Virus record (IMG/VR): IMGVR_UViG_3300025151_008080
Location: 1 to 64,000 of that record
DNA from: a virus
Reading direction: 5' to 3' (one strand)
DNA length: 64,000 bases
Part shown: positions 14,624 to 53,802 of the stretch, one piece after another
Layout of the letters: every line of letters starts with the position of its first letter
Numbering within the stretch: the first letter of the stretch is position 1
Translations under genes and position numbers: made by a program
Notes under the pieces: generated by a model
Told to the model about the DNA's origin: nothing
Database searches by the model: none
Seen by the model: the letters and a program-made list of their open reading frames with translations, nothing else

Positions 14624-14651
14624 ATAATAGGGTATCTAGAAAAAAAATCAA
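14624..14651 (-). promoter_or_regulatory. Early sigma70-like promoter of the DUF366-like gene
   Basis: Minus strand: TTGATT (14646-14651), 16-base spacer, TATTAT (14624-14629), then six bases to the ATG at 14617. The predicted transcript begins at or next to the start codon. Confidence 0.65.
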
Positions 14652-15328: not shown

Positions 15329-15345
15329 TTAAATTTTTGCTAATT

Positions 15346-19591: not shown

Positions 19592-19601
19592 AAGTTAAAG
19601 C

Positions 19602-20003: not shown

Positions 20004-20006
20004 AGT

Positions 20007-20024
20007 CGTATAATTAATTATACG
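20007..20024. promoter_or_regulatory. Perfect 18-base palindrome between divergent genes
   Basis: CGTATAATTAATTATACG is its own reverse complement and fills the whole gap between the ATG at 20003 (minus) and the GTG at 20024 (plus). It contains TATAAT on both strands. It could be a shared operator or paired minus-10 boxes; no good minus-35 was found. Confidence 0.45.
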
Positions 20025-23375: not shown

Positions 23376-23857
23376 TATATAGAGAAGATATACCAAGAGC
23401 TATAACTAATACTAACCCTATAGGGATTGAATTAGGAGTCGCAGGAGGCCGTTTTAGTGTAAAGCTAAATAATAAACACTCTTTCAAAAAGTTTTATTGT
23501 GTAGATAAGTGGAATGATAAACATAATATAAAAGAGTATTATGATGCACTTCATCGTTTGAATAAAGATAATATATATGTATTAAGAATGTCTTTTGAAG
23601 AGGCTCATACATTATTCGAAGATAACTTTTTTGATTTTATATATATTGACGGTTATGCTCATACAGGGCAAGATTCAGGAGTAACAATTAATAGCTGGTA
23701 TAATAAACTTAAAAAGGGCGGAGTTTACGCGGGACATGATTATAATATAGAAGAATGGCCGAAAAATGTAGAACATATAAATAATTTTTTAACACAAATC
23801 GATAAAAAACCAAACCTCACAACAGAAGCCTGGGCTTCGTGGTGGATAAAGAAATGA
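23357..23857 (+). CDS. Class I SAM-dependent methyltransferase, paralogue
   Basis: A 166-residue methyltransferase with IGIELGVAGGRFSVKL (motif I), FYCVDKWND, NFFDFIYIDGYAHTGQD and GGVYAGHDYN. The ATG at 23357 is chosen over one at 23330 because the extra nine residues carry no family similarity and would enlarge the overlap with the GT2 gene. It is a paralogue of the gene at 22144-22698 with the same FFDFIYIDG core, pointing to a duplicated transferase plus methyltransferase cassette. Confidence 0.78.
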   Translation: MEENNIIYREDIPRAITNTNPIGIELGVAGGRFSVKLNNKHSFKKFYCVDKWNDKHNIKEYYDALHRLNKDNIYVLRMSFEEAHTLFEDNFFDFIYIDGYAHTGQDSGVTINSWYNKLKKGGVYAGHDYNIEEWPKNVEHINNFLTQIDKKPNLTTEAWASWWIKK

Positions 23858-24894
23858 GACTAGCAGTACTTATATACGGACAACCTAGGTTTTTTGAAAA
23901 AACCGCTGATATAATAAAAAAAGAATTTGAAATACCTGGTTGGCAAACAGATTTTTTTATACATAATTGGGAAAACGTCGGGCATACCCCAGCATGTGAC
24001 GAGAATAATGATTACGACGAAAAATGTAACCAGGTAATTATACAAGAAAAACTAAATCCTATTACATATAATATAGAGAGTTATGATATAATATACGATT
24101 ATGCGAAAAAATATATTGAATGTATTAAGCAATTAACAAATAGAAAAGTACCGTACGGGAATAACTATAATTTAGAGCGATACTTCTTCGGTCAACATAT
24201 AAGCACACAAAGGTGTTATGAGTCTATTAAGTTATATGAAGATATAAATAATTTTCAATATGATATAATTATAAAAGCAAGAACAGATATAATTTATACC
24301 CCAAGTTATTGCTACAACACCGAAGAAGAGTACGTAGATCATAAGAAAGCAAACTATAGTGTATTAATTAATGACAGACCGGTGTGTCACGCGAATGGTA
24401 TTAGATATAATACGTTTAATAACACAGAAAATAAATGGGAAGCGAATCCGCTGAAATATTTCTATGAAAACAAGATGTCGCCAATGAATTTACCAACAAA
24501 TAAATGGTATAATGAAGTAGAATATAAATGGGGATATTGGGATCGGCTTTTAATAAATGATTGGTCTTTAGTATGTAATAGATTAGCAGCAGAGGTTTAT
24601 TATAATAAGTGGTTTGATAATTTATTTTTGACTCTTGGTAAAGATTTACTACATAATAATTTGAAAACTAGATGGTTATCAAGATCAGAACACACTCTTC
24701 AAGGCGAGTTAACAATAAACAATAAAGTAGAGTGTAAGTGGATGGGTCGTAGAAGAGATAAAAAAATTATCTCTGCAGAAAAAATTAAAGAGGATGTAAC
24801 AACATCTGATAAAATATTACTTTATCGAAATGATTGCATAAAAACATTACATAATAAAATACGGGAAATGTTTCCTGATAAAATAATAAGATGA
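23854..24894 (+). CDS. Putative glycosyltransferase of the GQPRF-type family, copy 2
   Basis: A 346-residue protein beginning MRLAVLIYGQPRFFEK; FFIHNWENVG, FFGQHISTQRCYESI and IIIKARTDIIYT match copies 1 and 3 in order. LLINDWSLVCNR is the counterpart of the KDWCMLGS block. The ATG at 23854 overlaps the methyltransferase stop as ATGA. Function as in copy 1; not proven. Confidence 0.55.
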   Translation: MRLAVLIYGQPRFFEKTADIIKKEFEIPGWQTDFFIHNWENVGHTPACDENNDYDEKCNQVIIQEKLNPITYNIESYDIIYDYAKKYIECIKQLTNRKVPYGNNYNLERYFFGQHISTQRCYESIKLYEDINNFQYDIIIKARTDIIYTPSYCYNTEEEYVDHKKANYSVLINDRPVCHANGIRYNTFNNTENKWEANPLKYFYENKMSPMNLPTNKWYNEVEYKWGYWDRLLINDWSLVCNRLAAEVYYNKWFDNLFLTLGKDLLHNNLKTRWLSRSEHTLQGELTINNKVECKWMGRRRDKKIISAEKIKEDVTTSDKILLYRNDCIKTLHNKIREMFPDKIIR

Positions 24895-25619
24895 GAGAAG
24901 TATTAAAAAGATCATTTGAAAAAATTTATTGTATAAATTTAAACGATAGAGTAGATAAGTGGGAGAAATGTCGTGCAATTTTCAAAAAACATAACATTGA
25001 AGATTTAGTACAGCGGTGGGAAGCAACAGAACCTAAAAATAAAAACAAAAAAGGGGATTGTGTTTACGCATGCGCGCACAGTCATGTTAGTATTATTACC
25101 CATGCATATGAAAATAATATAAAAAATATATTAATATTAGAAGATGATGTAGAATTTGTAGATGATTACAACGGTATATCAGCAGAACATATATTAAACG
25201 CTGGAATGTCTCAGATAAAGGAAAAAAACATATCATGGGATTTATTCTTTTTAGGGTATAGTTTTAAATTACGAGAGTTTTGTAATTATAGTCAATTAAC
25301 CCCTAATGTATTTCAAAGTACGAACCAATTACAAACTCATTGTTACGCAGTTAATTCTAATATATACAAAAAAATAATAAATGATAATGTCCCTGGTAAA
25401 GCTGCTATGGATGAATACTATGGTATATACCTTTCTCATAAAGTAAACGCATTAAATTTGTTTCCACTAATTACTTACCAAAGAAATGATATTTTATGCG
25501 ATATAGGTAACAACGTCCGTAAAGATAGAATTAAATTATACAACAGAGAAATACAGTTTTGGGAGAAAAAATTATATGGGTATGAAAAAGATTGCAGTAT
25601 TAATACACGGTCAGCCTAG
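24891..25619 (+). CDS. GT25-family glycosyltransferase
   Basis: The 242-residue protein matches GT25 (LPS beta-1,4-galactosyltransferase LgtB / LpsA type): FEKIYCINLNDRVDKWEKC at the N-terminus, CAHSHVSIITHAYEN, and ILILEDDVEFVDDY with the acidic motif. The C-terminal part carries THCYAVNSNIYKKI. GT25 enzymes build lipooligosaccharide in Proteobacteria, so this gene was probably taken from a Gram-negative donor. It overlaps the preceding gene by four bases and the next by 38. Confidence 0.85.
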   Translation: MREVLKRSFEKIYCINLNDRVDKWEKCRAIFKKHNIEDLVQRWEATEPKNKNKKGDCVYACAHSHVSIITHAYENNIKNILILEDDVEFVDDYNGISAEHILNAGMSQIKEKNISWDLFFLGYSFKLREFCNYSQLTPNVFQSTNQLQTHCYAVNSNIYKKIINDNVPGKAAMDEYYGIYLSHKVNALNLFPLITYQRNDILCDIGNNVRKDRIKLYNREIQFWEKKLYGYEKDCSINTRSA

Positions 25620-26601
25620 ATTTTTAAATTATACCTGGAAATTTATAAAAGAAGAGTATACCGTACCTAACTATGAAACTTACTATTTTGGTCACTTGTG
25701 GGAAAAAGTAGGTTTCGTACCCGATGACTGTCGTAATACTAATTATATACAGCATAATATAGATAAACAAATATTAAACAATTTAAATGATGTATCAATT
25801 ACTAATTATGATATTTTAGATGCAACAACAAAAGAGTTTCATCCTAAAATAAGCAGATATTTACATAATAAAGTAAAAAGTTTTGAGAATAGACTAGATG
25901 TAGTAAAAAAATTAAGGTATAGATACGGACAACATGTGAGTAAACAATTATGTTATGATGTTTGTTGCAATTTCGAAAAAAATAACGATATAACTTTTGA
26001 TATAATAGTTGTAATAAAAACCGATTTTGTCTATAAAAGAAAAAACTGTTATAAAAAACCTGAAAATTACGAACTTGAAAAAATAGAACTATATGATGAC
26101 GTAGAATGTAACTCTAATATTGTTAAAAATGTTACACTATGTTATGAAGAATGGCAATCATATACAAAAATGACAAATAAATACAATGTAACATCCTCAA
26201 CTGAACTACCTGAGCATACTATTTACAATAGATTATTAATGAACGACCATTGGTTAATGGGTAGTAGAGATGCAATGAGTATATATTGTACTAAATGGTT
26301 TGAAACTCATGAATTATTACTGCAAGAACTAAAAGATCAAAACTTTGACCAGAATTATGTAAATATAATTCCTAAAAAATACGGATGCCCCTTTATGATG
26401 CAAGGGGAAATAGGTTTAAAAAACAATATTACACTAAAACGAACCAACAAACGATTTAAACGAGTAGTGTTGCTTAATAACTGTAAAGAAAAATTCTTAC
26501 CTAATGGTAAAAACGGTAGAGAAGTAATACATAATCAACTTAGAGATATACAAACAGAGCAATTGTATATAGAGAATAGATTACAAGAAATATTTTCTTA
26601 G
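25582..26601 (+). CDS. Putative glycosyltransferase of the GQPRF-type family, copy 3
   Basis: A 339-residue protein beginning MKKIAVLIHGQPRFLNYT with YYFGHLWEKVG, YGQHVSKQLCYDV, IIVVIKTDFVYKR and LLMNDHWLMGSRDAM. An alternative ATG two codons earlier (25576) exists; the one used here lines up with the other copies. It overlaps the GT25 gene by 38 bases. It ends the rightward block and converges on the gene at 26604. Confidence 0.55.
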   Translation: MKKIAVLIHGQPRFLNYTWKFIKEEYTVPNYETYYFGHLWEKVGFVPDDCRNTNYIQHNIDKQILNNLNDVSITNYDILDATTKEFHPKISRYLHNKVKSFENRLDVVKKLRYRYGQHVSKQLCYDVCCNFEKNNDITFDIIVVIKTDFVYKRKNCYKKPENYELEKIELYDDVECNSNIVKNVTLCYEEWQSYTKMTNKYNVTSSTELPEHTIYNRLLMNDHWLMGSRDAMSIYCTKWFETHELLLQELKDQNFDQNYVNIIPKKYGCPFMMQGEIGLKNNITLKRTNKRFKRVVLLNNCKEKFLPNGKNGREVIHNQLRDIQTEQLYIENRLQEIFS

Positions 26602-26603
26602 CT

Positions 26604-27317
26604 CTATCTAAAGCTAAATTTGAGCGGTATATTACCATGTACTCGGACATTGCGAGAAATCATATGTTCGTAAATAATTGAATGCTCACTACCATCTAAT
26701 TTAGGTACTTTATCTAAACAAAGAGGGAATAAGTCAAACACAATATCAAACACATAAGGCCTAGCCAACATAACACACCAATCAGTATGAGTGTTACCTC
26801 GCTCGTCTGATCTAATCCATGGAACAAACAAAATATTTGTACAGTTTCTTTTATTGTGAGTATCATATTTAGATAATTTTGTTAAAACGTAATCTATATT
26901 AGATATAAAATCTTTTAAAACTATATCACACCGAGATCTAATAACAAAATCATACACCCGGTTAGTCTTTTTACGCAAAAGGTGAGACTCTCGCATACTA
27001 TAAAATTGAGATAAGCATGTATAATTAGTTGTTTTAATTTTATTAACAAAATCTGCTGAAAGTGCATCACGAAATTTAATGTGCTTTTTAGCGAAAAAAT
27101 TAATTACAGGATCTAATACTTGTTGACTGTCAATAATATAATCAACCGGTTTGTATAAATTAATATACTCTTCTGCTAACGAGGACTCCCATGTGTGTAT
27201 ATAGGTATCAATATTAATACCTTTAGAACGCCACTTATCTAATGTTTTTAGGGTATCAATGCCGTCTTTATAACTATCAGCTAGGCCAGATATACATAAA
27301 GCGATGTTGTTATTCAT
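26604..27317 (-). CDS. Diverged member of the GQPRF-type transferase family
   Basis: A 237-residue protein with IALCISGLADSYKDG, IDTYIHTWESSLAEEY, LYKPVDYIID, LSQFYSMRESHLL and YDFVIRSRCDIVLKD. The order (N-terminal strand, HTW, KP, YS, R-x-R-x-D-x-x-L) is that of the three rightward copies, but shorter and without GQPRF. Probably a glycosyltransferase. It shares a short leftward block with the 248-residue unknown upstream (one base apart). Confidence 0.5.
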   Translation of the reverse strand: MNNNIALCISGLADSYKDGIDTLKTLDKWRSKGINIDTYIHTWESSLAEEYINLYKPVDYIIDSQQVLDPVINFFAKKHIKFRDALSADFVNKIKTTNYTCLSQFYSMRESHLLRKKTNRVYDFVIRSRCDIVLKDFISNIDYVLTKLSKYDTHNKRNCTNILFVPWIRSDERGNTHTDWCVMLARPYVFDIVFDLFPLCLDKVPKLDGSEHSIIYEHMISRNVRVHGNIPLKFSFR

Positions 27318-27318
27318 T

Positions 27319-28065
27319 TTATATTAAAGAATTATATATTTTTTTAAAACTATCTACCAATGGGTGTGCATTATTTACGTAGTGTAAATTTTTAATATAA
27401 TTTGTAGTAAAATCTTTAAAGTTATATACATTTAAAGACTTTTTATTATGAATCATATTATATAAACCAGATAAACTAGTTAAATGATAAAATTGAGTAG
27501 TAATAACTTGCTCAGTAAAATGAACCGGAATAGAGTTATTCTCAATAAGCGTATCATAAAACGTATGATCTTTTTCCCATATTTTTTTCTCTCTAAAGTC
27601 AAAATCGTTATTAGTGTTATTAATGAATGTATGATTAGATTGAATAGATCTTAATTTGTTGTTTTTATAAAAGCTAGATCTAGTTTTTGATTTACTCCCT
27701 CTTCTCATATTAATACAATCTATATGAGAATAAAAAAAGACATTTAAACCGGGGTTGGTAATAGGTATTTTATATACAATATCATCATCATCTTGTTGAT
27801 ACAAAAGAACTTTTTTATTTTTAGAAAAAAAATCTTTACACTGAGTATCGTCTAGTAAAACAACATCAAACATCTCTGTCAAATAACTAATTACAACATT
27901 TCTTATTTTTTGTCTGAAGGTAAAATAATTTATCTTTAGGTTTTTATTCCATATATCTAATATCGTATAAAAAACATCTTCCTTTTGAGAGCTAGTAAAA
28001 AAGAAAGGTGGTTTAGTTTTGAGCCAGTAATTTTCTTCCCCTCTTATATGACACACTGTTACCAT
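27319..28065 (-). CDS. Hypothetical island protein
   Basis: A 248-residue, AT-rich gene product with VVLLDDTQCKDFF and an acidic run (YQQDDDDIVYKIPIT) that might bind a metal-sugar complex, followed by a basic Ser/Arg/Asn stretch. Some Rhamno_transf-like transferases have a similar acidic run, but I see no firm family match. Being embedded between methyltransferase and transferase genes, a sugar role is plausible only by context. Confidence 0.4.
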   Translation of the reverse strand: MVTVCHIRGEENYWLKTKPPFFFTSSQKEDVFYTILDIWNKNLKINYFTFRQKIRNVVISYLTEMFDVVLLDDTQCKDFFSKNKKVLLYQQDDDDIVYKIPITNPGLNVFFYSHIDCINMRRGSKSKTRSSFYKNNKLRSIQSNHTFINNTNNDFDFREKKIWEKDHTFYDTLIENNSIPVHFTEQVITTQFYHLTSLSGLYNMIHNKKSLNVYNFKDFTTNYIKNLHYVNNAHPLVDSFKKIYNSLI

Positions 28066-28598
28066 TATTTTTTAATACCCCAAAAATATAAGTCTGTTAT
28101 GTGTTCGTTTACAGAAAACGCATAACTATTAAAACTGTTATCAACATTAATAACATTTCTCACATCGTTTTCAGTTAGATTTTTATAATAGTTAGCCCAC
28201 TCGTTAGTAAGTAGCGGAGCATTCTCAGGAGTATTGTTAATTGTACCATGTTCATGACGGTTTGTTGATGCGCAAGTAAATAAAAACAACCCACCAGGTT
28301 TTAATAAAAAATTTACAATATGTTTTAAGCTTTCTTGATAAAACATATCATGCTCAAAGCACTCTGTACTTATAACAACATCAAATTTTTTATCTGGATT
28401 ATATTTGTGAGTAGGAGACACAACATCTACGTTTTTTCCAACACCAACATCAATACCAATGTATGTACATCTTTTGAATAGGTATCTGTTGGTACCATTT
28501 ACATCTAAAGACCCACAATCTAAGACGGTTTTTTCTACAAAAAAAGTAGGATGTTGTTCCCTTACTAATTTACAAAAATTTTTTTGTTCACGATGCAT
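28065..28598 (-). CDS. Class I SAM-dependent methyltransferase (Methyltransf_11 type)
   Basis: The 177-residue protein has VLDCGSLDVNGTNRYLF (motif I variant), YIGIDVGVGKNVDVV (motif II), FDVVISTECFEHD (motif IV) and HIVNFLLKPGGLFLFTCA (motif V/VI). The TECFEHD signature is typical of small-molecule or sugar methyltransferases. It overlaps the GT32 gene upstream by 11 bases. Confidence 0.82.
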   Translation of the reverse strand: MHREQKNFCKLVREQHPTFFVEKTVLDCGSLDVNGTNRYLFKRCTYIGIDVGVGKNVDVVSPTHKYNPDKKFDVVISTECFEHDMFYQESLKHIVNFLLKPGGLFLFTCASTNRHEHGTINNTPENAPLLTNEWANYYKNLTENDVRNVINVDNSFNSYAFSVNEHITDLYFWGIKK

Positions 28599-29391
28599 AA
28601 AGTTTATGTAATTTTAACATTATTTTACCGAATAATGTATGACTATTGTTATTTATCCAATCCCAGTTTTTTATTTTTTTATATAAATGATGAGAGGTAG
28701 TAGACCAATAATGTAACGTTATGAGCTTTTCAGGTATATTATAATTGTCAATAAAAATTTTATTAACTTCAGTCCAGTGAGGGGTAAAAAAGTATTCAGG
28801 AGATAAAATCTTAATACGACCATTATTTTTAAATTTTTCATCAGCAATTTTTTTAGGTAAAAAAATTGAAGCCTCAGCCCAACCTTTAGGCTTGAACCAT
28901 TTTTCGTAAAGTTTTAACCACTCTGTAAAAAAATCGCTACCTGGTTCAGTGAGTAATACGGCATTACATATACCTTTATAATTTTCTTTATCTACAATAC
29001 CTTTTTTACAAGCATACTCTAATCCTAGAACAGTCTTATATTGTAATAATTCTTTATACGGCCTGATGGATATAGTATCTATATCCATATATATTCCACC
29101 TACTTTATAAAGTATGTCCATTCTTAATTTATCTGCTCGATGGGTTGTCTTTTCTATAGTGTGTCGGCCAATATGAGTAGGTAAATCTACCTTAACAAAT
29201 TCTACTACAGATATTTCTTTTAATTTATCCCACCAAATACCGTAAGGTTGATAATAATAGTAAATATAAATTTTTTCAGGATTATTTACTAAATAAGAAG
29301 AAAATATAGAAAGATAATAAGGGAATATAAATTCTTTCTTACTATTACTTTCTTCCATGCCATATATAAAATGTATTATATTAGGTATCAT
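28588..29391 (-). CDS. GT32-family glycosyltransferase
   Basis: The 267-residue protein carries the GT32 DXD sugar-binding region: RADKLRMDILYKVGGIYMDIDT (DID around residues 99-101), followed by ISIRPYKELL. IPNIIHFIYG at the N-terminus is the usual opening strand. Members add mannose, galactose or glucose in capsule and O-antigen synthesis. It overlaps the CMP-sugar synthetase-like gene by four bases. Confidence 0.85.
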   Translation of the reverse strand: MIPNIIHFIYGMEESNSKKEFIFPYYLSIFSSYLVNNPEKIYIYYYYQPYGIWWDKLKEISVVEFVKVDLPTHIGRHTIEKTTHRADKLRMDILYKVGGIYMDIDTISIRPYKELLQYKTVLGLEYACKKGIVDKENYKGICNAVLLTEPGSDFFTEWLKLYEKWFKPKGWAEASIFLPKKIADEKFKNNGRIKILSPEYFFTPHWTEVNKIFIDNYNIPEKLITLHYWSTTSHHLYKKIKNWDWINNNSHTLFGKIMLKLHKLYAS

Positions 29392-30032
29392 ACATATTGG
29401 CTTGCTACATTAAAATCTTCTTGCGTATCTAAATCAATACACTCTTTTCTGTCCCTTATAATATAAAAGTATGGATTAGCACCTACCCTACATCTATACC
29501 GCTCGTAGGCTCGTTTAGATATACCATATAAACCTGTTGTCTCTTTTATAACCGGTGTCGCATCTTGCGATCTCGGTAAAATATTAGGCTGATAATTAAC
29601 TGGTTGATCTTTATGCCAAAACCAACCATATTCTTCCGTAGCGGTAAGTATAGAATCATGCTTTGAACTATGAGTTAACTTATCTACACAGTCTCTAATA
29701 GTCTCAGGTTTTAAAAACGGAGCTGTAGCATATAATTGAAAATAAAAATCATAAGAATCTATAAAATCTATATCATAATGAAAAACATCATTACCATTAG
29801 CCGTATCTAGTGTGAGTTCCGGTTTTCGATCAATCCATTTTATTTTATTTTGAAAACAATATCCTTTTATATCTTCACTATCAGTATCTACGTATATATT
29901 ATCAAAGCACTCTGCTTGGATACAATGATCTATAATATATTTATAAAGAGGTTTATCCCCTAAAAGTTTAAAGTTTTTATCTTTAACTCTTGTAGAATTA
30001 CTTTTAATAGGTATAGTAGCGGCTATTTTCAT
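29388..30032 (-). CDS. Cytidylyltransferase, CMP-sialic-acid synthetase-like
   Basis: A 214-residue nucleotidyltransferase: KIAATIPIKSNSTRVKDKNF (CTP-binding loop with R-x-K-x-K), NIYVDTDSEDI, LYATAPFLKPETI, and a late ECIDLDTQEDF. This is the NeuA/KdsB/legionaminate-type fold that makes CMP-activated ulosonic acids. The ATG at 30032 is preferred to one at 30056 because the fold begins at MKIAATIPIK. If active it would activate a sialic-acid-like sugar for one of the island transferases, but no NeuB/NeuC homologue is visible, so the sugar would have to come from the host or from outside this window. Confidence 0.8.
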   Translation of the reverse strand: MKIAATIPIKSNSTRVKDKNFKLLGDKPLYKYIIDHCIQAECFDNIYVDTDSEDIKGYCFQNKIKWIDRKPELTLDTANGNDVFHYDIDFIDSYDFYFQLYATAPFLKPETIRDCVDKLTHSSKHDSILTATEEYGWFWHKDQPVNYQPNILPRSQDATPVIKETTGLYGISKRAYERYRCRVGANPYFYIIRDRKECIDLDTQEDFNVASQYV

Positions 30033-30086
30033 TTTAATTTTTGTATAATAAAGCAATTACCTTATTTGTAGTCATCTGCGAATAAC

Positions 30087-30683
30087 TTATACAATACCGT
30101 TGAAAGGTATTGTCTCATCATTAAAATAAACAATAAGAAAGTCGTCATACCTATGAGTGTTATCAGCAACATTTAAACGGTTTCTTGAATCTATATATAT
30201 TAGATCTCTGTCGTGAGCTAGTAACTTATAAAGGGTCTCGACAGATTCAATATCTTCTATAAAAAACATACCACCAGGTGTTAGTCTATGTTTAAATTTT
30301 TTAATAAAATTTAACTGATCAGCATATGTATGAGAACCATCTTCAATGATAATATCAAACTTTATATCTTTAATCGGACTATCATCTATAGTGTTAATAT
30401 CAAAATTATGTATGTTTACTCTTTCTGTAAACTCTTTATTATTAATTTTTTCTTGTAGTTTAGGTCTAATATCAATATCTACACCATAAATGTTAGTCTC
30501 TTTATTTTGAAAAAAATTATCCCATAATACCATGGAATTACCGTCATATAAACCAATCTCTAAAAAATTAAGCTTTTTATCTTGATAAGAATTAAAAAAT
30601 TTATCGTATATATTAAGAAAATAATGGGTATACGCTTTATCTGTATTATATTTACAGTTATTATAACAATCTATTAATTTCAT
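30087..30683 (-). CDS. Macrocin/cephalosporin-hydroxylase-like methyltransferase
   Basis: A 198-residue protein with LNFLEIGLYDGNSMVLW, IYGVDIDIRP, FDIIIEDGSHTYADQLNFIKKF and GGMFFIEDIE. EDGSHTYADQ is the pattern of CmcI/macrocin O-methyltransferase-like enzymes, which use Mg2+ and SAM to methylate sugar hydroxyls. It overlaps the GT2/GT92-like gene upstream by 23 bases. Confidence 0.75.
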   Translation of the reverse strand: MKLIDCYNNCKYNTDKAYTHYFLNIYDKFFNSYQDKKLNFLEIGLYDGNSMVLWDNFFQNKETNIYGVDIDIRPKLQEKINNKEFTERVNIHNFDINTIDDSPIKDIKFDIIIEDGSHTYADQLNFIKKFKHRLTPGGMFFIEDIESVETLYKLLAHDRDLIYIDSRNRLNVADNTHRYDDFLIVYFNDETIPFNGIV

Positions 30684-31413
30684 GAGTTAAATCTTCTATA
30701 TAAGGTAAGTAATTTTTATGTTTTTGTCCGAGTTCACTGTTATTGAAGTGATGTTGGAACCCTAAATTTAGTTTTTTATCTCTTTTTGAAACTTTATTAC
30801 TTATTTGAGTTTTTCTTTTTAGTAATGTCTCATTAAAAGGAGAATAACCGTACCATAAAATAGCGGCTTTATCAACCGTCTCTTGATTCCAGTAATGACG
30901 CCCTGTAGGGTAAGTAACATTAATTTGATGCATACTTCTTGGAGATCTATTAATGTAAATTTGATCTGGTTTATTTACATCTACATTAATAATTCCATGA
31001 GATCTTTGTTCGTATATTGGCTTGTTTATAGATATATCTTTACCGATATTTTCTTCTATATCTATCATTGGTATAGATTTAACAAAAAACTGCTCTGAAT
31101 GTTGGTCGCATAATGTATCAATATCTCCAATTAAAAACTCTGTTACATTAAGACACATTTTCCACCCAGGTATTCGTCTTTCGAACGATTCTACTTCTCT
31201 ATCTAACCGTTCTGCGTCAAATTCTGGTTCTTTTGTATCTATGATTAACCATTGCTTTTCATCTGGACAATATTCTCTAATAATATCTACAGAATTATCT
31301 GTAGAGTTATAATTTATAAAAACCCCTCTGTCAAATATCTCAAGATGATGTTTAACAAAAAAAGGCAATAAATATTCTTCATTATAAAAATGACATAGTA
31401 GAGTTTTATTCAT
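30661..31413 (-). CDS. GT2/GT92-like glycosyltransferase
   Basis: The 250-residue protein begins KTLLCHFYNEEYLLPFFVKHH and continues FINYNSTDNSVDII, FLIGDIDTLC; these are the family 2 substructures seen in the Glyco_tranf_2_4 / GT92 group. GDID is the candidate metal motif. The C-terminus (RSHGIINVDVNK) carries residues of the acceptor side. Shares one base with the radical SAM gene downstream. Confidence 0.65.
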   Translation of the reverse strand: MNKTLLCHFYNEEYLLPFFVKHHLEIFDRGVFINYNSTDNSVDIIREYCPDEKQWLIIDTKEPEFDAERLDREVESFERRIPGWKMCLNVTEFLIGDIDTLCDQHSEQFFVKSIPMIDIEENIGKDISINKPIYEQRSHGIINVDVNKPDQIYINRSPRSMHQINVTYPTGRHYWNQETVDKAAILWYGYSPFNETLLKRKTQISNKVSKRDKKLNLGFQHHFNNSELGQKHKNYLPYIEDLTHEINRLL

Positions 31414-32282
31414 TAATTTAAAAATTCTTCAGGTGTTAAATCTATTTTACATGTTTTACATATACCGGTTTTTGGGGAAATATCTTTAAGAGAATTTCTC
31501 CAAAGATCGTATTTTTTACTAGCATATATATCCCATAAAAAATCATCGTTAACATTACCAGTTTTACCATTGGAGTGCTCTTTAACGTCAGATCTCGTAT
31601 TACAACAAACCATCACACTACCGTTGTAATCTATATACATATTATTGAATGGTTGTTTGCAGGGTTTTGTTCTAATATAATTATTATTGTCTTTAATAAC
31701 TTCTTCCGTACGTCCTGTACCTTCTAAACTAAAATTCCTAGCGCGAAGATGAACTTTTATTCCGGGTATTTCAATTTTATATTCTATACGTTGATTATCA
31801 ATATCGCTAATAACGCTGTATGGTACGTTTAATTGTTCCATTTTATTAATCATTTTTTCTTTCATTTTTTTATGATTATATTTTTCGTTATTACTTAAAT
31901 ATTGTTGGATAAAAAGCTCATTCAACCCACTGTCTCTTAGTTCTTCTATATAATTAGAATCTTTTATATAATCTCCGTTAGTGTTAGTTCGTAATTTGCA
32001 GTCTGGTAATTTTTGTCTAGCTTCTTGCAATCTGGATAAAATAACATCTTTATGAGAGAGCGGTTCATTATACCTACTGTAGGTTATTTCTTGGTCGTAT
32101 TTTATTTCTTTAAGTTGATTAATAATACTGAAATACATTTCATCTGACATAAATGTAATATCATTAATTCTATCTATATAAGAATTTGGACAAAACCAAC
32201 ACTTTCTATTACAAAAAGAAAAAACTTCTATTTCTATTAGTTTTAATTGTTGTTTAAACCAATTTTTTATATTTGAGTTCAT
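31413..32282 (-). CDS. Radical SAM protein with C-terminal SPASM domain
   Basis: The 289-residue protein has the core cluster motif CNRKCWFC (Cys 24, 28, 31), a strand YSRYNEPLSH, and a C-terminal SPASM-like part with PCKQPFNNMYIDYNGSVMVCC and CKTCK. It shares the SPASM type of cofactor binding with the 20024 gene, but in the usual order. Substrate unknown; radical SAM-SPASM enzymes in such islands usually act on sugars or small peptides. It overlaps the methyltransferase upstream by four bases. Confidence 0.8.
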   Translation of the reverse strand: MNSNIKNWFKQQLKLIEIEVFSFCNRKCWFCPNSYIDRINDITFMSDEMYFSIINQLKEIKYDQEITYSRYNEPLSHKDVILSRLQEARQKLPDCKLRTNTNGDYIKDSNYIEELRDSGLNELFIQQYLSNNEKYNHKKMKEKMINKMEQLNVPYSVISDIDNQRIEYKIEIPGIKVHLRARNFSLEGTGRTEEVIKDNNNYIRTKPCKQPFNNMYIDYNGSVMVCCNTRSDVKEHSNGKTGNVNDDFLWDIYASKKYDLWRNSLKDISPKTGICKTCKIDLTPEEFLN

Positions 32283-32863
32283 GCTTTTCTTTTTATAATT
32301 AACAAACCATTGTTATTTTTAAATTCTTTTTCTAAAACCCAATCTTTATTTTCTAAAAATTCTAATATAGCCGGCATGAGACCGGTTTTTTTATTTTGCG
32401 TATTTATTTTTTTACTTGAAATGGGATCGTAATACTGATCTGTATAACCGAAAACTACAGTGTCGTGAAAAATTATATACTTATTAACCTTATTAGAATG
32501 TCTCGCTAGTTCCTGGGTAAGTTGATCGTATGTATGATATGTATCGATAAACAATAAATCTGTTTGCTCAATATCAACCACTAATGTATCTGCTTGAGTG
32601 AACTTATATTCGATATTATTTTCAGCGGCAAGTTTATACACTGTGTCAAGATCTCCACCATAATGAGTTGGTGGCATAATATCATAAGAATGTAAACGTT
32701 TAGGTTTACCAGCTAAAAAACCATATGATGAAACAATAGCTCTAACTCCAAACTCTGTAACAGTACTACACTTTTCAGTGTATTCTTTTAGTGTAGGTAA
32801 ATGTTCGTTAATATCTGAAGAGATATTGCATAATGAATTATATTTATTTAAAATTTCTTTCAT
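32279..32863 (-). CDS. Class I methyltransferase-like protein
   Basis: A 194-residue protein with VTEFGVRAIVSSYGFL (motif I variant), LHSYDIMPP (motif II), DLLFIDTYHTYDQLTQEL and KYIIFHDTVVFG. The FIDTYHTYDQL-FHDT layout matches SAM methyltransferases of the Methyltransf_24 group, though the glycine loop is reduced. The C-terminal half (LMPAILEFLENKDWVLEKEF) is family-like. Overlaps both neighbouring genes by four bases. Confidence 0.7.
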   Translation of the reverse strand: MKEILNKYNSLCNISSDINEHLPTLKEYTEKCSTVTEFGVRAIVSSYGFLAGKPKRLHSYDIMPPTHYGGDLDTVYKLAAENNIEYKFTQADTLVVDIEQTDLLFIDTYHTYDQLTQELARHSNKVNKYIIFHDTVVFGYTDQYYDPISSKKINTQNKKTGLMPAILEFLENKDWVLEKEFKNNNGLLIIKRKA

Positions 32864-33600
32864 ATTTTATAGTGATCACATAGAGCTGCTCTAATCTTAT
32901 TACAATCTTCAATATCAAACGAAGATGTCAATTTATTTCTACTAACACTTTCATAATGATAACATTCTGCTTTACCGACAAATTTGTGCTTCAAATTATG
33001 TTTGGTACATTTTATACAAAAATCTACATCTTCAAAGCATTTCTTATAAGATATATCTAAACCACCCATATCTAAATATATGGATTTCTTAATCAAAACA
33101 AATGCAAAAGTATTACCTACATTATATTCAGTAGGTAGTTGTTTATTTTTTTGTCTTAAATGTTTGTGAGTTACCTCAGCAGAATTATTATGAATATGGT
33201 GTATATGTCCTCCATGTTGGATAGTATTATCGGAATATAATAACTTACAACCTATAGTACCAATATTACTAGCTGTCTCCTTCCACATTATAGATACTGC
33301 ATCGTTAATTAATTCAATATCATCATTACAAAATAATATAAACTTCTCTTTAACTCTATTGTTGATTATCCAATTGTGGTTTCTAGCAAAATTATAATTT
33401 TTAAATTTAATTAGTTCGACTTTAAAAAGAAAAGTAGAAAGATATTTTTCTAACAAATTAAGCTGATTACTATTTGAACCTGTATCTCCTACATAAAACT
33501 TTAAATTACTATATGTATTTTTTTCTTTAAAAGAGTTTAAACACCTTTCAATATAATCAAAATTATTTTTTGTAAGAATTATAACTCCTATTGATTCCAT
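32860..33600 (-). CDS. GT2-family (rhamnosyltransferase-type) glycosyltransferase
   Basis: The 246-residue protein has IGVIILTKNNFDYIERCLNSF, YVGDTGSNSNQLNLL, FILFCNDDIELIND (NDD motif), GGHIHHIHN, then GGLDISYKKCFEDVDFCIKC with the catalytic ED-x-D. This is the classic GT2 rhamnosyl or galactosyl type and may use a dTDP-sugar made by the rmlB/rmlD-like genes at 59.5-61.4 kb. It overlaps thyX by 13 bases and marks the left boundary of that gene. Confidence 0.85.
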   Translation of the reverse strand: MESIGVIILTKNNFDYIERCLNSFKEKNTYSNLKFYVGDTGSNSNQLNLLEKYLSTFLFKVELIKFKNYNFARNHNWIINNRVKEKFILFCNDDIELINDAVSIMWKETASNIGTIGCKLLYSDNTIQHGGHIHHIHNNSAEVTHKHLRQKNKQLPTEYNVGNTFAFVLIKKSIYLDMGGLDISYKKCFEDVDFCIKCTKHNLKHKFVGKAECYHYESVSRNKLTSSFDIEDCNKIRAALCDHYKI

Positions 33601-36009: not shown

Positions 36010-36753
36010 TTAAACCTTTAAAGCCATATCCCATACTAATAAATGTAGTCTTGGACTAAAATTAAAGTAATGTTTTTTAGCTAACTCAGCTACCATAGGA
36101 GCTACTTTAATATGCTCCTCTCTACTACCGCAACAAGGCATTAACCAAACTCTCCCCGGTGGTATATCAAACGGGTCAATATATTTCTCAATAACCTCAT
36201 CTAAGTCTGACTCCTTACCTATAACAAACTTAAAGCCAGAATTGTGAGTTGCGTGCCATTCTAGTACATTAGGTTTATATCTTCTATCTTCAGGGTCACC
36301 ATTATTACTAAGCTTCGGAGAAGTAGTAAATGTAGCACCATACCGCAACCACTCTTTATCGGGCATAATAGTAGCGTTAGTTTCAAAATCTATTCTCGGT
36401 ACACTACCCCACTCTACATCCATATAATAGATAAAATCAAGCAATGACCTTTGCTGTACAAGAGGCTCTCCACCTGTAATTTTAAGTATAGCTCCATTAC
36501 GTAGATGTTCTGAATATTTTTCTTCTTCTAATAATTTAAGAAGATTTTCATACGTAAATTTATTCTTAATACTCCATGACACATAACTATCACATCCATG
36601 AGGAGAAGCATCAGAAGCAAATCCTTTACATGTAAGATTACACATCGATAGTCGCATAAATACAGACGGGTAACCGACGTATTCACCTTCACCCTCTACT
36701 GTGTAGAAGACTTTATCATCTGATAAAAATATTGTTTTGTCTTTTTCTTCCAT
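36010..36753 (-). CDS. queE: 7-carboxy-7-deazaguanine synthase QueE (variant Cys spacing)
   Basis: The 247-residue radical SAM enzyme converts carboxytetrahydropterin to 7-carboxy-7-deazaguanine. It has YTVEGEGEYVGYPSVFMRL, the GGEPL SAM-binding loop (ILKITGGEPLV), FETNAT and the short QueE-type fold. The cluster cysteines are Cys38, Cys42 and Cys54, i.e. C-x3-C-x11-C instead of C-x3-C-x2-C; other QueE groups also vary here. It is expressed with queD and a 54-codon gene in one leftward block led by the promoter at 37386-37413. It fills the middle of the preQ pathway, making the substrate of QueC. Confidence 0.88.
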   Translation of the reverse strand: MEEKDKTIFLSDDKVFYTVEGEGEYVGYPSVFMRLSMCNLTCKGFASDASPHGCDSYVSWSIKNKFTYENLLKLLEEEKYSEHLRNGAILKITGGEPLVQQRSLLDFIYYMDVEWGSVPRIDFETNATIMPDKEWLRYGATFTTSPKLSNNGDPEDRRYKPNVLEWHATHNSGFKFVIGKESDLDEVIEKYIDPFDIPPGRVWLMPCCGSREEHIKVAPMVAELAKKHYFNFSPRLHLLVWDMALKV

Positions 36754-36920: not shown

Positions 36921-37379
36921 TTAAAATTTGTTTATATCTACGTTATTGTTTTTATATATAGCAGAGTTTTTCTCGTGCTCAAATAACTCAACTTCCGAAC
37001 ACCAACATCTGTCGTTAGTTTGTAACTTTACATATTTATCTGCTTCTTCGCAGCAAAATTGTGCAAATTTTTCTATACCAACACCATCCATAACTCGCAA
37101 ATCCACAACTCCAATATCAGATAACTTTCTAAACTCTTCTAACGCCGGGTCCTTTCTAGATACAACTAATGTATGATCGAATTGTCTTTCTAGATCTTTT
37201 TTAAGATCTTTTAAACCACCGAAATCTACAACCCAATTATTCTCATCTAGCTTATAAGCTCCGAACTTAAACTTAGCAATTAAACGATAACCATGAATAA
37301 AGCGGCAATGAGACGTAGCTTCCGGTTGCCGAAAAGCACAGCTACCTAATTCGATAATCTTAGTACTATAAAAACTCAT
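36921..37379 (-). CDS. queD: 6-carboxytetrahydropterin synthase QueD-like
   Basis: The 152-residue protein of the PTPS family forms 6-carboxytetrahydropterin from dihydroneopterin triphosphate. It contains FRQPEATSHCRFIHGYRL (His24, Cys25, His29), VVDFGGLKDLK, FDHT (residues 67-70) and a C-terminal VELFEHE. The usual HGH zinc pair reads HGY (Tyr31), a variation I have seen in a phage-type group but cannot verify. The ATG at 37379 is chosen over an in-frame ATG at 37403 because the promoter's TATAAT ends six bases before it. Confidence 0.85.
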   Translation of the reverse strand: MSFYSTKIIELGSCAFRQPEATSHCRFIHGYRLIAKFKFGAYKLDENNWVVDFGGLKDLKKDLERQFDHTLVVSRKDPALEEFRKLSDIGVVDLRVMDGVGIEKFAQFCCEEADKYVKLQTNDRCWCSEVELFEHEKNSAIYKNNNVDINKF

Positions 37380-37385
37380 ACATCT

Positions 37386-37413
37386 ATTATAACACAATCT
37401 CAACTAAAATCAA
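37386..37413 (-). promoter_or_regulatory. Early sigma70-like promoter of queD-queE
   Basis: Minus strand: TTGATT (37408-37413), 16-base spacer, TATAAT (37386-37391), then six bases to the ATG at 37379. Nearly a mirror image of the folE2 promoter next to it. Confidence 0.75.
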
Positions 37414-37450: not shown

Positions 37451-38485
37451 ATGGACAGTAAATATGAATGGTTAGGAGAAGACGACGAACTAACCGGTGA
37501 AAAGGATGTTATTGCTAAAGAGATTATGGGTGATGAATATAGTAAAAGCTATTTCCCGCCTATACGAGTTTACGATAATAATGTAAATGCTAATAAGAAA
37601 TACATTGCGTCATTACCAGATCTGCAAAACGGGCCTTCGAGCTTAATTCAAGGCGCAGCTGTACCTATCCAGCAAGTAGGTATCCATAATTTTAAATTAC
37701 CTCTTACATATAAAAAGAGGTGTGGGGATACAATAGAACTAGAAACAAGCGTAACAGGTAGCGTTAGTTTAGAGGCACACAAAAAAGGTATTAACATGTC
37801 TCGTATTATGAGAAGTTTTTATGATCATAAAGAAGATGTCTTTAGTATTGGTAAGATTAAAGATGTTTTAGAGACATATAAAAATAATCTTAAGAGTTTT
37901 GATTCTCGTATCATGTTAAAAATATCATACCCTATTAAGCAAAAAAGCTTACGAAGCGGCTTAGAGGGATATCAATATTACGATGTAGTTTTTGAAGGAG
38001 ATTTAACTAAAGACGGAGAATTTAAAAAATATATTCATTTTGATTTTGTTTACTCATCAGCTTGTCCATGTAGTTTTGAGTTGAGTGAACATGCAGAGAA
38101 ATACCGCAACAGAGCAACCGTTCCGCACAGTCAGAGAAGTGTAGCTCGGGTAAGTGTTAAGTTTGATGAAATGCTGTGGGTTGAGGACTTACAGGAATTG
38201 TGCTTAGAAGCACTGCAAACTGAAACACAAGTAATGGTAAAGAGAGAAGACGAACAAGCATTCGCGGAAAAGAATGGAGCATACTTAAAGTTTGTAGAGG
38301 ATGCAGTAAGATTACTTTATGATAAACTTACAAATGAATCTAGAATTACAGATTTTAAAATTGTAGCATCTCACAACGAAAGCTTGCATAGTCACAACGC
38401 TGTATCTGTAATCGTCAAAGGGGTACCAGGCGGCTTTACCGCGGGAGTAGCGAGAGATGTTTTTGAGTCAACTGGCTTAAGGTAA
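37451..38485 (+). CDS. folE2: GTP cyclohydrolase IB (FolE2 type)
   Basis: The 344-residue protein is FolE2, which opens GTP to dihydroneopterin triphosphate, the first step to preQ0. Landmarks: [39 protein letters not shown] with metal-binding Cys, [12 protein letters not shown], and [12 protein letters not shown]. About 50 extra residues before SLPDLQ make it longer than many homologues; a later in-frame ATG at 37529 is an alternative. A possible reason to carry FolE2 is its tolerance of metals other than zinc. It is divergent from queD with the two promoters back to back. Confidence 0.9.
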
Positions 38486-50650: not shown

Positions 50651-51739
50651 ATGTCTAAACTCGCTGATAAAGTATTTGCTAAATTGCAAAAATTAAATCA
50701 AAACGCAACAACACTAGAAAATAATACTCTTAGTAATGTCACTGATTGGATTGATACTGGTTGTTTTGTATTAAATTCTATCCTTTCAGGTTCTATTTAT
50801 GGTGGTGTACCTAAAGGTAGAATTACAATTTTTGGTGGGGAATCCGGATGTGGGAAGACATTCATTCTCAATAAGATTTTAGCAAATGCTCAGCGAAAAG
50901 GCATGATACCTATTATTTTTGATACAGAGGTTGCTGTTGAAACAGAAGGTGCTAAAAACGTCGGTTTAGATACTAGTAATGTAAAGTATGTTCCAGTAGA
51001 TACTGTTGAGAGTTGTCGTAATCAAATGATGGCTTTTCTTGACGATGTCGAAAAAGAACCTGAGTTACATGGTAAGTTTATTATCTCTATCGATTCGTTA
51101 GGTAACCTTGCGTCGGAAAAAGAAATTAACGACGCGCATTCGAACAAAGGAGCCATGGATATGGGACTACGAGCTAAGCAATTAAAATCCATGATGCGTA
51201 TGATAACGTTTAAAGCTGCAGTAACTGGTACAACAGTTATATGTAGTAATCATACCTATGCTGATCCTGGAGCTTTACATCCAACGCTAGTAAAGCAACA
51301 AGCTGGTGGTTCTGGTCCTATATACATGGCTTCTATTCTTGTTCAAATGGCTGCAAAGAAAGAAAAGACAGACGCTTCAAACGAAAGCGATGAAGCGATT
51401 TCAGAGAGTAGAAATTATTCTGGTGTTACATTGAGAATGTTAACAGTAAAAAATAGATTTATACCTGCTTTCTTACAAGGAGAGGTGTACTTAAACTTTA
51501 AAACTGGTTTAGAGAAATATTCCGGTCTAAAAGATATCGCTGTAGCGCACGGTATTATACAACAAAACGGTTCTACGTATGCAATGGGAGAGCAAAAACT
51601 AGGTTATTACAAGAATTGGCGCAATAATGATGAAGTATGGAATAATATTCTTCCTAAGATAGAATCATCTATAAATGAAAAGTACCGGTATGGTAAGTCG
51701 TTAGACGAACCCACTATTTTAGAGCAAGATAATGAGTAA
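50651..51739 (+). CDS. uvsX: UvsX RecA-like recombinase
   Basis: The 362-residue protein has FGGESGCGKTFIL (Walker A), IIFDTEVAVE, FIISIDSLGNL (Walker B) and a GDNN-like DNA loop region with TTVICSNHTY. It starts at the ATG at 50651; an in-frame start at 50624 would overlap the small gene. UvsX drives strand exchange with UvsY and gp32, both present here. The last bases overlap queC. Confidence 0.93.
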   Translation: MSKLADKVFAKLQKLNQNATTLENNTLSNVTDWIDTGCFVLNSILSGSIYGGVPKGRITIFGGESGCGKTFILNKILANAQRKGMIPIIFDTEVAVETEGAKNVGLDTSNVKYVPVDTVESCRNQMMAFLDDVEKEPELHGKFIISIDSLGNLASEKEINDAHSNKGAMDMGLRAKQLKSMMRMITFKAAVTGTTVICSNHTYADPGALHPTLVKQQAGGSGPIYMASILVQMAAKKEKTDASNESDEAISESRNYSGVTLRMLTVKNRFIPAFLQGEVYLNFKTGLEKYSGLKDIAVAHGIIQQNGSTYAMGEQKLGYYKNWRNNDEVWNNILPKIESSINEKYRYGKSLDEPTILEQDNE

Positions 51740-52448
51740 AGCAGTAGTACCTATTTCAGGAGGGTTAGATAGTTCGGTAATCTTAAGTTTAGCCGCCGCG
51801 GCTCATGATGAGATTTATGCGCTAACGTATGATTATGGTCAAAAGCATACAAAAGAAATTATATATGCTGGCATACAAATTGATAATTATGATAATATCG
51901 AAGAGCATAAAGTTATTGATATAAGTTTCTTTAAAGATATTGCCCCAACATCCTCTCTAACTAACAATAAAATAAAAGTAGCACATGCTCGAGATGTACT
52001 AGGAGATGCGCAAACTGTAAATTATGTTCCGTTCCGTAATATGATGATGTTATCTATTGCATGTTCGTATGCAGAAGCAGTCGGAGCTGATACGGTATAT
52101 CATGGTTCTGCTCTTGTAGACAGTCAAGCAGGTTATTGGGATGGAAGTAAAGAATTCTTAGAACAAATTAACAACGTTACTAGCTTAAACAGAAAGAATA
52201 AAATACAAATAAAAGCCCCACTAATTAAACTATCTAAAAAAGAAATTATACAATTAGGTATAGATAATAACGTTCAGTTTGAAGATACCTGGACGTGTTA
52301 CGAAGGAGAAGAGAAAGCATGTGGTTACTGTACTGCTTGTAGCTCTCGCATACAAGGGTTTTTACAAAATAAACTTATTGATCCGGTTGAATACAAACGA
52401 GAAGATATTCCATGGGTGAGAATAGTTGATTTACATATGAAAGGTTAA
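51732..52448 (+). CDS. queC: 7-cyano-7-deazaguanine (preQ0) synthase QueC
   Basis: The 238-residue ATP pyrophosphatase has VPISGGLDSSVIL (residues 6-18), YDYGQKHTKE, VPFRNMMML, and a zinc site with Cys189, 197, 200 and 203 (CYEGEEKACGYCTAC). It converts carboxydeazaguanine to preQ0 with ATP and ammonia, giving the substrate of QueF. It overlaps uvsX by eight bases. A class II glutamine amidotransferase follows after 14 bases. Confidence 0.93.
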   Translation: MSKAVVPISGGLDSSVILSLAAAAHDEIYALTYDYGQKHTKEIIYAGIQIDNYDNIEEHKVIDISFFKDIAPTSSLTNNKIKVAHARDVLGDAQTVNYVPFRNMMMLSIACSYAEAVGADTVYHGSALVDSQAGYWDGSKEFLEQINNVTSLNRKNKIQIKAPLIKLSKKEIIQLGIDNNVQFEDTWTCYEGEEKACGYCTACSSRIQGFLQNKLIDPVEYKREDIPWVRIVDLHMKG

Positions 52449-52454
52449 TATAAT
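52426..52454 (+). promoter_or_regulatory. Early sigma70-like promoter before the amidotransferase gene
   Basis: TTGATT (52426-52431), 17-base spacer, TATAAT (52449-52454), eight bases to the ATG at 52463. The minus-35 box lies inside queC. Confidence 0.65.
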
Positions 52455-52462
52455 ATAAAATT

Positions 52463-53107
52463 ATGTGTGGAATATTTGGATCAAACGATATAGAAACATT
52501 TAGAAAACTATATACGAAAAACCTAGATAGGGGTAATTTTGTCAGATCAGTAACGATGTTATTTCCAGCGGGAGTAAAAAGTAATACAAACATTACTACG
52601 ACATATGAGGTAGACTTAGATAAAAAAATACCTGAAAGTAAATATTGTGTTTACTATTTAGGACATGTACAATCTCCGACCTCTTCAGTAAGAGAGTTCG
52701 ATGCAAAAACTTCTCACCCGTATGATTTAAATAGTCAATATCTAGCGCATAATGGTGTTTTAGAAAACGATAGAGAGCTAATCGATAAAATGAAACTAGA
52801 AAACTATAATGATGTAGATAGTAGTATTATTTTACCATTAATAGAAAAAGCTGGTTTCGTTGAAGGTATTGAAATGTTACAAGGAACGTTTGGATGTTGG
52901 TATTATAACGCCAGTGACGCAACGTTAAAGATTTTTCGCAGTGGTTCTACCTTATTTATAGACCATAAGCATAGTAGCTTTACATCAGCAAGTCAAACGG
53001 GATACAACTTAGTGAATGAAGGGGAGATCCTAGAATATAACTTCACTAGTAGAAAATTTTATAAATCAAATACTTTTAAATTAAATTCTGTTCCGTTCTT
53101 TCTATGA
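52463..53107 (+). CDS. Class II glutamine amidotransferase (Ntn hydrolase)
   Basis: The 214-residue protein starts MCGIFGSND, so the nucleophile Cys2 is exposed after Met removal, and has YLAHNGVLEN as the class II HNG-x3-N motif and FGCWYYN. It releases ammonia from glutamine for a partner. The nearest gene, 14 bases upstream, is queC. In archaea a class II amidotransferase fused to QueC-like protein (Gat-QueC) makes archaeosine, so a split form is a good hypothesis. It could also serve a sugar or amide synthesis pathway. It overlaps the following gene by four bases. Confidence 0.75.
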   Translation: MCGIFGSNDIETFRKLYTKNLDRGNFVRSVTMLFPAGVKSNTNITTTYEVDLDKKIPESKYCVYYLGHVQSPTSSVREFDAKTSHPYDLNSQYLAHNGVLENDRELIDKMKLENYNDVDSSIILPLIEKAGFVEGIEMLQGTFGCWYYNASDATLKIFRSGSTLFIDHKHSSFTSASQTGYNLVNEGEILEYNFTSRKFYKSNTFKLNSVPFFL

Positions 53108-53802
53108 AAACGCTTATTGCGACAGCTACTAAATATAATCAAAAACAATATGAGACTGTATCAAAGCTACATCAAAGCTTAAGACTGCACAGTAGTTATT
53201 ATGATTGTATACCTACGTATGAAAATAAAGATGGTTTATGCAAGGTTTACAATAGATATTTAGAACAATATTCAGATGATTACGAGTGTATAATATTCGT
53301 ACATGATGATGTATTTATTGACAGTGTTTCATTCGTTGATACAATCAAATTATTATTTGCAAATAATTATAGTGTTGTCGGTTTAGCTGGTGGTAGTAAT
53401 TTAAAAATAAAAAAACCATGTTTATGGCATTTACTAACTAACAAAAATACTCAATCAGGTATAGTTTCTCACTATTTAAGAGAGTTTAATTCTCCTGGCG
53501 CGTACGTGCCTACTATTTTCGGACAAACCCCTAAACCGGTTGTATTATTAGATGGTTTGTTTTTAGCGTTAAACACAAAAGATATTAAAAAACACAATAT
53601 AAAGTTCGACGAAAACATTGCAGGTTTTCATCACTATGATTTAAAATTTAGTATTGATTGCTATCTAAAAGGTTTAAAGTTAACTACTGCACCAATACAT
53701 GTTATCCACGAATCTCCTGGCTTGACTAATATGACAAAAGAGTATATAACATCTGAGGAATATTTGTACAAATTCTTAGAATCACATGGTAACAGAAAAT
53801 AA
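53104..53802 (+). CDS. Glycosyltransferase-like protein (Glyco_tranf_2_5 type)
   Basis: A 232-residue protein with CIIFVHDDVFIDSVSFVDT as a DxD-like acidic strand, VVGLAGGSN, and LLDGLFLALNTKDIKK then HHYDLKFSIDCYLKGLK. This recalls the StrF-type family 2 transferases found in marine phage genomes. It is located between the amidotransferase and the replicative helicase and overlaps both, so it is transcribed with DNA functions. Confidence 0.65.
   Translation: MKTLIATATKYNQKQYETVSKLHQSLRLHSSYYDCIPTYENKDGLCKVYNRYLEQYSDDYECIIFVHDDVFIDSVSFVDTIKLLFANNYSVVGLAGGSNLKIKKPCLWHLLTNKNTQSGIVSHYLREFNSPGAYVPTIFGQTPKPVVLLDGLFLALNTKDIKKHNIKFDENIAGFHHYDLKFSIDCYLKGLKLTTAPIHVIHESPGLTNMTKEYITSEEYLYKFLESHGNRK

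Follow-up and report, generated by a model that had tools for sequence, protein, structure and literature searches.

A conserved queC–gat gene pair in a marine T4-like phage and its proposed role in 7-deazaguanine DNA modification

The queC–gat pair and its conservation

We analysed the first 64,000 nt (the window) of the 70,759-bp contig that forms IMG/VR virus record IMGVR_UViG_3300025151_008080, which comes from a marine T4-like phage, with a focus on two adjacent plus-strand genes, queC and gat. The first (51732–52448) encodes a 7-cyano-7-deazaguanine synthase of 238 aa, identified by PF06508 (2.8e-59), by the NCBIfam model TIGR00364 (over its cut-off) and by alignment. The second (52463–53107) encodes a stand-alone class II amidotransferase of the N-terminal nucleophile (Ntn) hydrolase type, 214 aa long, with matches to GATase_6 (7.7e-9, above the gathering score) and phrog_12378 (2.4e-13) and a structure model of the same kind. 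The two open reading frames (ORFs) are separate and lie in different frames, with 14 nt between the queC stop and the gat start. T4-like replication genes (UvsX, DnaB helicase) surround the site, and a gene for a Glyco_tranf_2_5 (GT2_5) protein (53104–53802), conserved in the window-type clade described below, lies between gat and the DnaB-like helicase gene.

The same pair is carried by hundreds of related viral stretches. A tblastn search of phage records with Gat found queC–gat in Vibrio phages, and gat directly follows queC in all eight cultured phages inspected (KVP40, nt-1, pf16, 1.081.O, F86, D491s, 2.275.O and 6E35.1a), which include the Vibrio phages KVP40, nt-1 and 6E35.1a and the Pseudomonas phage pf16. 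Relatives of the KVP40 Gat occur in 51 phage records, the gene context having been inspected for the cultured phages just named. Three overlapping scans of IMG/VR with Gat returned 54, 338 and 299 relatives, from which 54, 80 and 80 loci were taken; the 202 loci read gave 200 usable Gats, corresponding to 155 distinct proteins.

Among these Gat-fetched loci, queC lies within 2.5 kb for 139 of the 155 distinct Gats, and no queC is in view for the other 16, many of which are near a contig end. In the reverse direction, Gat is found downstream in 76 of 80 loci fetched by KVP40-type QueC alone, against a Gat profile match within the 3-kb flanks in 0 of 80 control loci with canonical phage QueC; test and control are different QueC lineages with related rows within each, and the counts are not independent events. 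A weak partial BLAST match to Gat in a long ORF of one canonical locus (L380) was excluded from the count. Two of the four KVP40-type loci without Gat stop at the contig end right past queC, and the other two (L306 and L308) have no Gat nearby, L306 being on the same contig as L112, a locus that holds one. The two genes overlap or are at most 30 nt apart in 135 of 178 measurable loci, the remainder being wider and often containing inserted genes, and the linkage recurs in two settings, DpdA2-QueF-QueC-Gat and UvsX-QueC-Gat-GT-DnaB. Since the counts from both directions agree, the pairing goes beyond chance: queC–gat is a conserved two-gene module, not a coincidence. Conservation of the pair had been named in the initial annotation of this DNA as a means of checking the association, and it is evident here.

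Several variants of the arrangement were observed. Many window-type relatives have a gene of the GMP reductase/IMPDH family (GuaC-like) between queC and gat (L029:5042-5998, L033:5045-5998, L051:4282-5307, L057:4970-5995 and others), with a PF00478 match in the three inserts tested; no gene of this family was found in the window's own record. In two loci, genes for heme oxygenase and for a ferredoxin-dependent bilin reductase occupy the same place (L047:1779-3015, assigned by Pfam, and L048:4759-5995). In L043:1668-2310, gat is split over three frames, by a frameshift or an assembly error. The 306-kb contig G017, which contains locus L112, has four DpdA2-like matches in two tandem pairs, and its Gat lies between one pair and queC.

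The QueC and Gat proteins and their relatives

The window QueC carries the motifs SGGLDS, YGQKHTKE and VPFRN and a zinc-binding cysteine stretch with CxxC (CYEGEEKACGYCTAC), as defined in PMC13329287. Where canonical QueC has YPDC, a motif whose Tyr the E. coli enzyme requires (PMC13329287), the window protein has YWDG. The Pro of this motif is replaced by Trp, His or Phe in 24 of 24 QueCs partnered with Gat, and is kept by 22 of the 25 canonical proteins and by all five fused ones. Two loci, L047 and L048, have a queC without the zinc-binding cysteines, and in L429:2941-4041 the QueC ORF spans 367 aa, about 130 aa above the usual length, which suggests an insertion within queC.

The window Gat contains Cys2, Arg23, His96-Asn97-Gly98 (in HNGVLEN) and Asp119, with Gln70 at a position where Arg is usual. 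Its structure model, built on 90 homologues, has a predicted local distance difference test (pLDDT) score of 94.1, and a Foldseek search of the PDB gave GFAT, PurF and GlmS as best matches (E ~1e-9 to 1e-8), along with AsnB and EgtC. As modelled, Gat is a glutaminase-type domain of the GAT-II fold. The initial annotation had described a class II amidotransferase with Cys2 and an HNG-x3-N motif 14 bases past queC, a description with which the GATase_6 match, the GAT-II model and HNGVLEN agree.

In GAT-II enzymes such as PurF and GlmS, the Arg at the position of Gln70 binds the α-carboxylate of glutamine, and Asp119 and His-Asn-Gly provide glutamine binding and the oxyanion hole. Cys2, Arg23, His96-Asn97-Gly98 and Asp119 are invariant in the tree alignment, with Cys2 present in 53 of 53 rows of stand-alone and comparison Gats, and Cys, Asn-Gly and Asp in 36 of 36 stand-alone rows. 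At the glutamine clamp, in contrast, 35 of the 36 stand-alone rows have Gln, and all 17 fused, amidoligase-type and GlmS rows have Arg. Across the wider set, Gln occupies this position in 154 of the 155 distinct Gats (three read by eye); some of the retrieval patterns contained Gln itself, and of the 122 proteins matched by a Gln-free pattern as well, 121 have Gln. The sole Arg-form Gat (L058:728-1357) has an adjacent GT2_5 gene and no queC in its 7-kb contig, and a dedicated search for further Gats of this type returned L058 only.

The initial annotation had suggested that the pair might be a split version of the fused Gat-QueC of archaea and phages. Our trees do not favour this view. The five fused Gat-QueCs included fall outside a single group of stand-alone Gats, which has a support of 98 in the Shimodaira–Hasegawa-like approximate likelihood ratio test (SH-aLRT), and outside a single group of partnered QueCs (SH-aLRT 98, and 97 in a second tree). 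A joint clade of stand-alone and fused proteins gave P values in the approximately unbiased test (p-AU) of 0.60 for Gat and 0.09 for QueC, i.e., a common origin is not rejected. The trees were built without archaeal Gat-QueC, because a genome scan for it with the Gat profile yielded mostly GlmS-like proteins (39 loci, comprising 37 long GlmS-like proteins and two Gat-QueCs from one metagenome-assembled genome). The topology favours, short of demonstrating, a separate origin of the two forms. The same deep split between window-type and KVP40-type proteins appears in the Gat and QueC trees, which indicates that the pair is old and that its genes have been inherited together.

Several known systems resemble the pair. 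Fused Gat-QueC, found as archaeal archaeosine synthase and in phage 9g, likewise joins a class II amidotransferase to a QueC PP-loop ATPase by fold and serves a phage 7-deazaguanine pathway; it differs from the present case, in which queC precedes gat as a gene of its own, Gat has Gln at the Arg position, QueC reads YWD where the fused protein has YPD, the tree groups are separate, and the genomes often encode QueF, dPreQ1 having been measured in one of them. Canonical QueC (PF06508 cluster 1, as in CAjan-type phages and E. coli) and the partnered QueCs have the zinc site, SGGxDS, YxQxHxxE and VPxRN in common, apart from exceptions such as L047; canonical QueC differs in keeping YPDC and in the absence of an adjacent Gat. 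The two-subunit GMP synthetase of some archaea also has a stand-alone amidotransferase gene beside a PP-loop ATPase gene; its amidotransferase, however, is of class I (PF00117) and its substrate is xanthosine monophosphate (PMC13329287).

A GAT-II protein of related sequence (24–29% identity) occurs in the amidoligase (COOH.NH2 ligase) cassettes of phages PA11, Vp_R1 and T5S1, and a sister relation of the window Gat to this group has low support (53.9). These proteins are longer, keep the Arg and lie beside COOH.NH2 ligase genes, not queC, and membership of the window Gat in the group was rejected on the Arg and the ligase neighbours. Two further amidoligase-type matches, PGN6866 and TacPo2, have surroundings without useful annotation.

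Pathway genes in the window and published DNA chemistry

The start of the window holds a second set of genes on the plus strand that bears on the pathway. It begins with the last 68 aa of a TGT/DpdA-like transglycosylase of the phrog_19058 family (2–208), truncated by the record start and matched by a profile of the 260-aa family (positions 201–261, E 6.5e-16) and by phrog_19058 (8.8e-4). A formyltransferase-like protein follows (202–783; PF00551 3.2e-9; family profile 5.3e-76, the window protein itself being one of the eight rows of that profile), which is a candidate dPreQ1 formyltransferase. Next come an NTPase/kinase-like protein of the AAA_28 type that recurs in this operon (1127–1702; PF13521 2.3e-14; same family in L172) and queF (1686–2600; PF14489 8.8e-14; phrog_5949 3e-74), whose translation gives a bimodular 7-cyano-7-deazaguanine reductase of 304 aa. 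QueF keeps ESKSMKLY and SNC..PDWGD, which we take to be the NADPH motif and the catalytic Cys/Asp, respectively; judged by these motifs, it is a QueF nitrile reductase and not QueF-L. The presence of queF claimed by the initial annotation is therefore upheld, and a misreading of folE2 as queF is ruled out by a separate gene with its own PF14489 match.

The remaining pathway genes lie elsewhere in the window: a queE-like radical SAM gene on the minus strand (36010–36753; PF13353 3.2e-5; matches in loci with other pathway genes), which is the weakest of the assignments, queD of the 6-pyruvoyl tetrahydropterin synthase family, also on the minus strand (36921–37403; PF01242 2.4e-16), and folE2 for GTP cyclohydrolase I type B on the plus strand (37451–38485; PF02649 4.9e-72). 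Between the two sets, positions 14648–33600 form an extended cluster in which two radical SAM proteins of the SPASM type are accompanied by many ORFs resembling glycosyltransferases or methyltransferases.

In many Gat loci the operon order is FolE, the 260-aa protein (phrog_19058), formyltransferase, AAA_28, QueF, QueC and Gat, and the window start repeats the run from the tail of the 260-aa protein to QueF. The 260-aa protein was recognised only through this recurrent operon and a structure model; the record gave no DpdA match with Pfam TGT or a DpdA2 query, and the phrog_19058 profile has weak similarity to the DpdA1 and DpdA2 profiles (prob 2–5%). The model of the family, made for the L172 homologue (pLDDT 90.8), matches TGT (2ash, 2.2e-7) and the preQ0 insertase DpdA (7ui4, 3.8e-6) in the PDB. 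As modelled, the protein has a TGT TIM-barrel fold, and for this reason it is very likely the base-exchanging enzyme. Co-occurrence was followed in 20 Gat-bearing records, mostly fragments, consisting of the window's own and 19 further contigs selected by length. The phrog_19058 protein is present in 11 of them, all 11 with QueF and 10 with the formyltransferase, which is found in none of the other nine; DpdA2 is present in 1 of the 20. Among cultured phages that carry the pair, five (nt-1, KVP40, pf16, 2.275.O and 6E35.1a) gave no formyltransferase match.

Cui et al. (2023) reportedly found formyl-preQ1 in phage DNA and named the formyltransferase DpdN, a name that we presumptively extend to the window protein at 202–783. 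Its position beside queF suggests formyl-preQ1 as an end product, and the predicted base in the window phage is 7-aminomethyl-7-deazaguanine (preQ1) or formyl-preQ1.

Published measurements exist for two phages with the pair. In 6E35.1a, with the order dpdA2-queF-queC-gat, 15% of dG carries a modification whose mass fits dPreQ1 and which was reported as dPreQ1 (PMC12028318). DNA of nt-1, which has DpdA2-queC-gat without QueF, contains per 10^6 nt 232 dPreQ0 (the 7-cyano form), 72 dADG (the 7-amido form) and 44 2'-deoxyarchaeosine (dG+), the last of which the authors ascribe to an ArcS (PMC6884629). By comparison, plasmid DNA in E. coli reached as many as 45,000 dG+ per 10^6 nt when the fused 9g Gat-QueC acted together with DpdA, and CAjan and Rosebush reach ~30% dPreQ0 with plain QueC (PMC6884629). 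Because nt-1 has mainly dPreQ0 and 6E35.1a has dPreQ1, against abundant dG+ from the 9g protein, queC–gat appears to act like a QueC that supplies preQ0, and any activity toward dG+ would be a minor one.

The gene after queC is annotated as hypothetical in KVP40, nt-1 and 6E35.1a, and it is absent from the KVP40 list of QueD, FolE, QueC, QueE, DpdA2 and QueF (PMC8056088). The accessible parts of the nt-1 and 6E35.1a DNA analyses do not mention the stand-alone Gat; mention in Cui et al. (2023) or in a 2024 review is possible.

Function of the pair

The pair most likely helps to build a modified guanine for phage DNA, and the sequence comparisons support Gat as a QueC partner in the 7-deazaguanine DNA-modification pathway. 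On balance, we lean toward a reading in which QueC and Gat are the two subunits of a glutamine-type QueC that feeds a preQ1-type modification. Gat would be the glutaminase-like Ntn-hydrolase subunit, presumably in physical complex with QueC, and would pass ammonia to it for two ATP-dependent steps, from 7-carboxy-7-deazaguanine (CDG) to 7-amido-7-deazaguanine (ADG) and on to preQ0. QueF would then reduce preQ0 to preQ1, which the TGT-like protein (its tail encoded at 2–208) would place in DNA in exchange for guanine, and the formyltransferase would probably cap the aminomethyl group, giving formyl-preQ1. This reading draws on what is shown here about the order and conservation of the genes, the folds and residue patterns of the proteins and their co-occurrence, and on dPreQ1 and dPreQ0 data from print.

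Several observations weigh against it. The Gln in place of the glutamine-binding Arg means that glutamine may not be the donor, and could point to a different amide donor. Canonical phage QueC works without Gat, as in CAjan and Rosebush, and an ammonia subunit is therefore not generally needed. DNA of nt-1 has trace dG+ (PMC6884629), the L058 Gat stands without queC in its contig, and QueF was found in 12 of the 20 larger, mostly fragmentary Gat-bearing records rather than in all.

A possible but distinctly less probable alternative is that Gat has changed its amide donor or chemistry, using Cys-based Ntn catalysis on a 7-deazaguanine amide or nitrile, or on another small amide, in a branch specific to the QueCs with Trp, His or Phe between Tyr and Asp. 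The near-universal Gln at a position where all 17 comparison rows have Arg, with the other catalytic residues kept, suggests such a change, and the substrate motif of the partner QueC is altered in step (Pro in 0 of 24). Retention of Asp119 and His-Asn-Gly speaks against it, however, and the ordinary dPreQ1 of 6E35.1a indicates that the QueC–Gat product can be plain preQ0 (PMC12028318). In its broadest form, the idea would be that the Ntn partner of QueC has given up free glutamine throughout a large phage family and that the pair is a new type of 7-deazaguanine nitrogen-transfer enzyme, drawing on another amide or acting directly on the deazaguanine and feeding formyl-preQ1-type modification; in this form it is doubtful.

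We consider it unlikely that the pair is a split archaeosine synthase in which QueC and Gat turn preQ0, free or in DNA, into G+ as the fused protein of 9g does. The domain pair is identical in kind, a common origin is not rejected, and nt-1, with queC–gat and no QueF, has dG+. This dG+ is a trace beside the dPreQ0 of the same DNA and far from the level reached with the 9g protein, and the authors invoke ArcS for it (PMC6884629). Moreover, the modification in 6E35.1a is dPreQ1 (PMC12028318), the window QueF would use up preQ0, and the fused proteins retain the Arg in Gat and YPD in QueC. Archaeosine is thus an unlikely main product, and of the interpretation in the initial annotation, the partnership of Gat with QueC in the 7-deazaguanine pathway is supported, while a split archaeal or 9g-type Gat-QueC making archaeosine is not.

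Service of Gat to the neighbouring glycosyltransferase (53104–53802) or another sugar pathway, with queC adjacent by chance, is highly improbable: a GT2_5 gene follows Gat in most window-type loci, and lies beside it in L058 without queC in view, but KVP40, nt-1, pf16, 2.275.O, 1.081.O, F86, D491s and 6E35.1a have no annotated glycosyltransferase adjoining queC–gat, and the two genes remain close despite heme oxygenase, bilin reductase or GuaC-like inserts. The initial annotation had raised the prospect of finding the amidotransferase with sugar or asparagine-synthesis genes and never with queC; queC is instead its constant neighbour across different genomic settings, and a sugar or asparagine role was rejected.

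In many viral contigs, a short TGT-like protein and a formyltransferase are likewise linked to this 7-deazaguanine pathway. If Gat is indeed a subunit of QueC, the pair would have a two-residue signature (Gln in Gat; Trp, His or Phe in QueC), and Gat would be a second candidate, besides ArcS, for the source of the trace dG+ in nt-1. It would also add a missing step to a widespread phage pathway of guanine modification.

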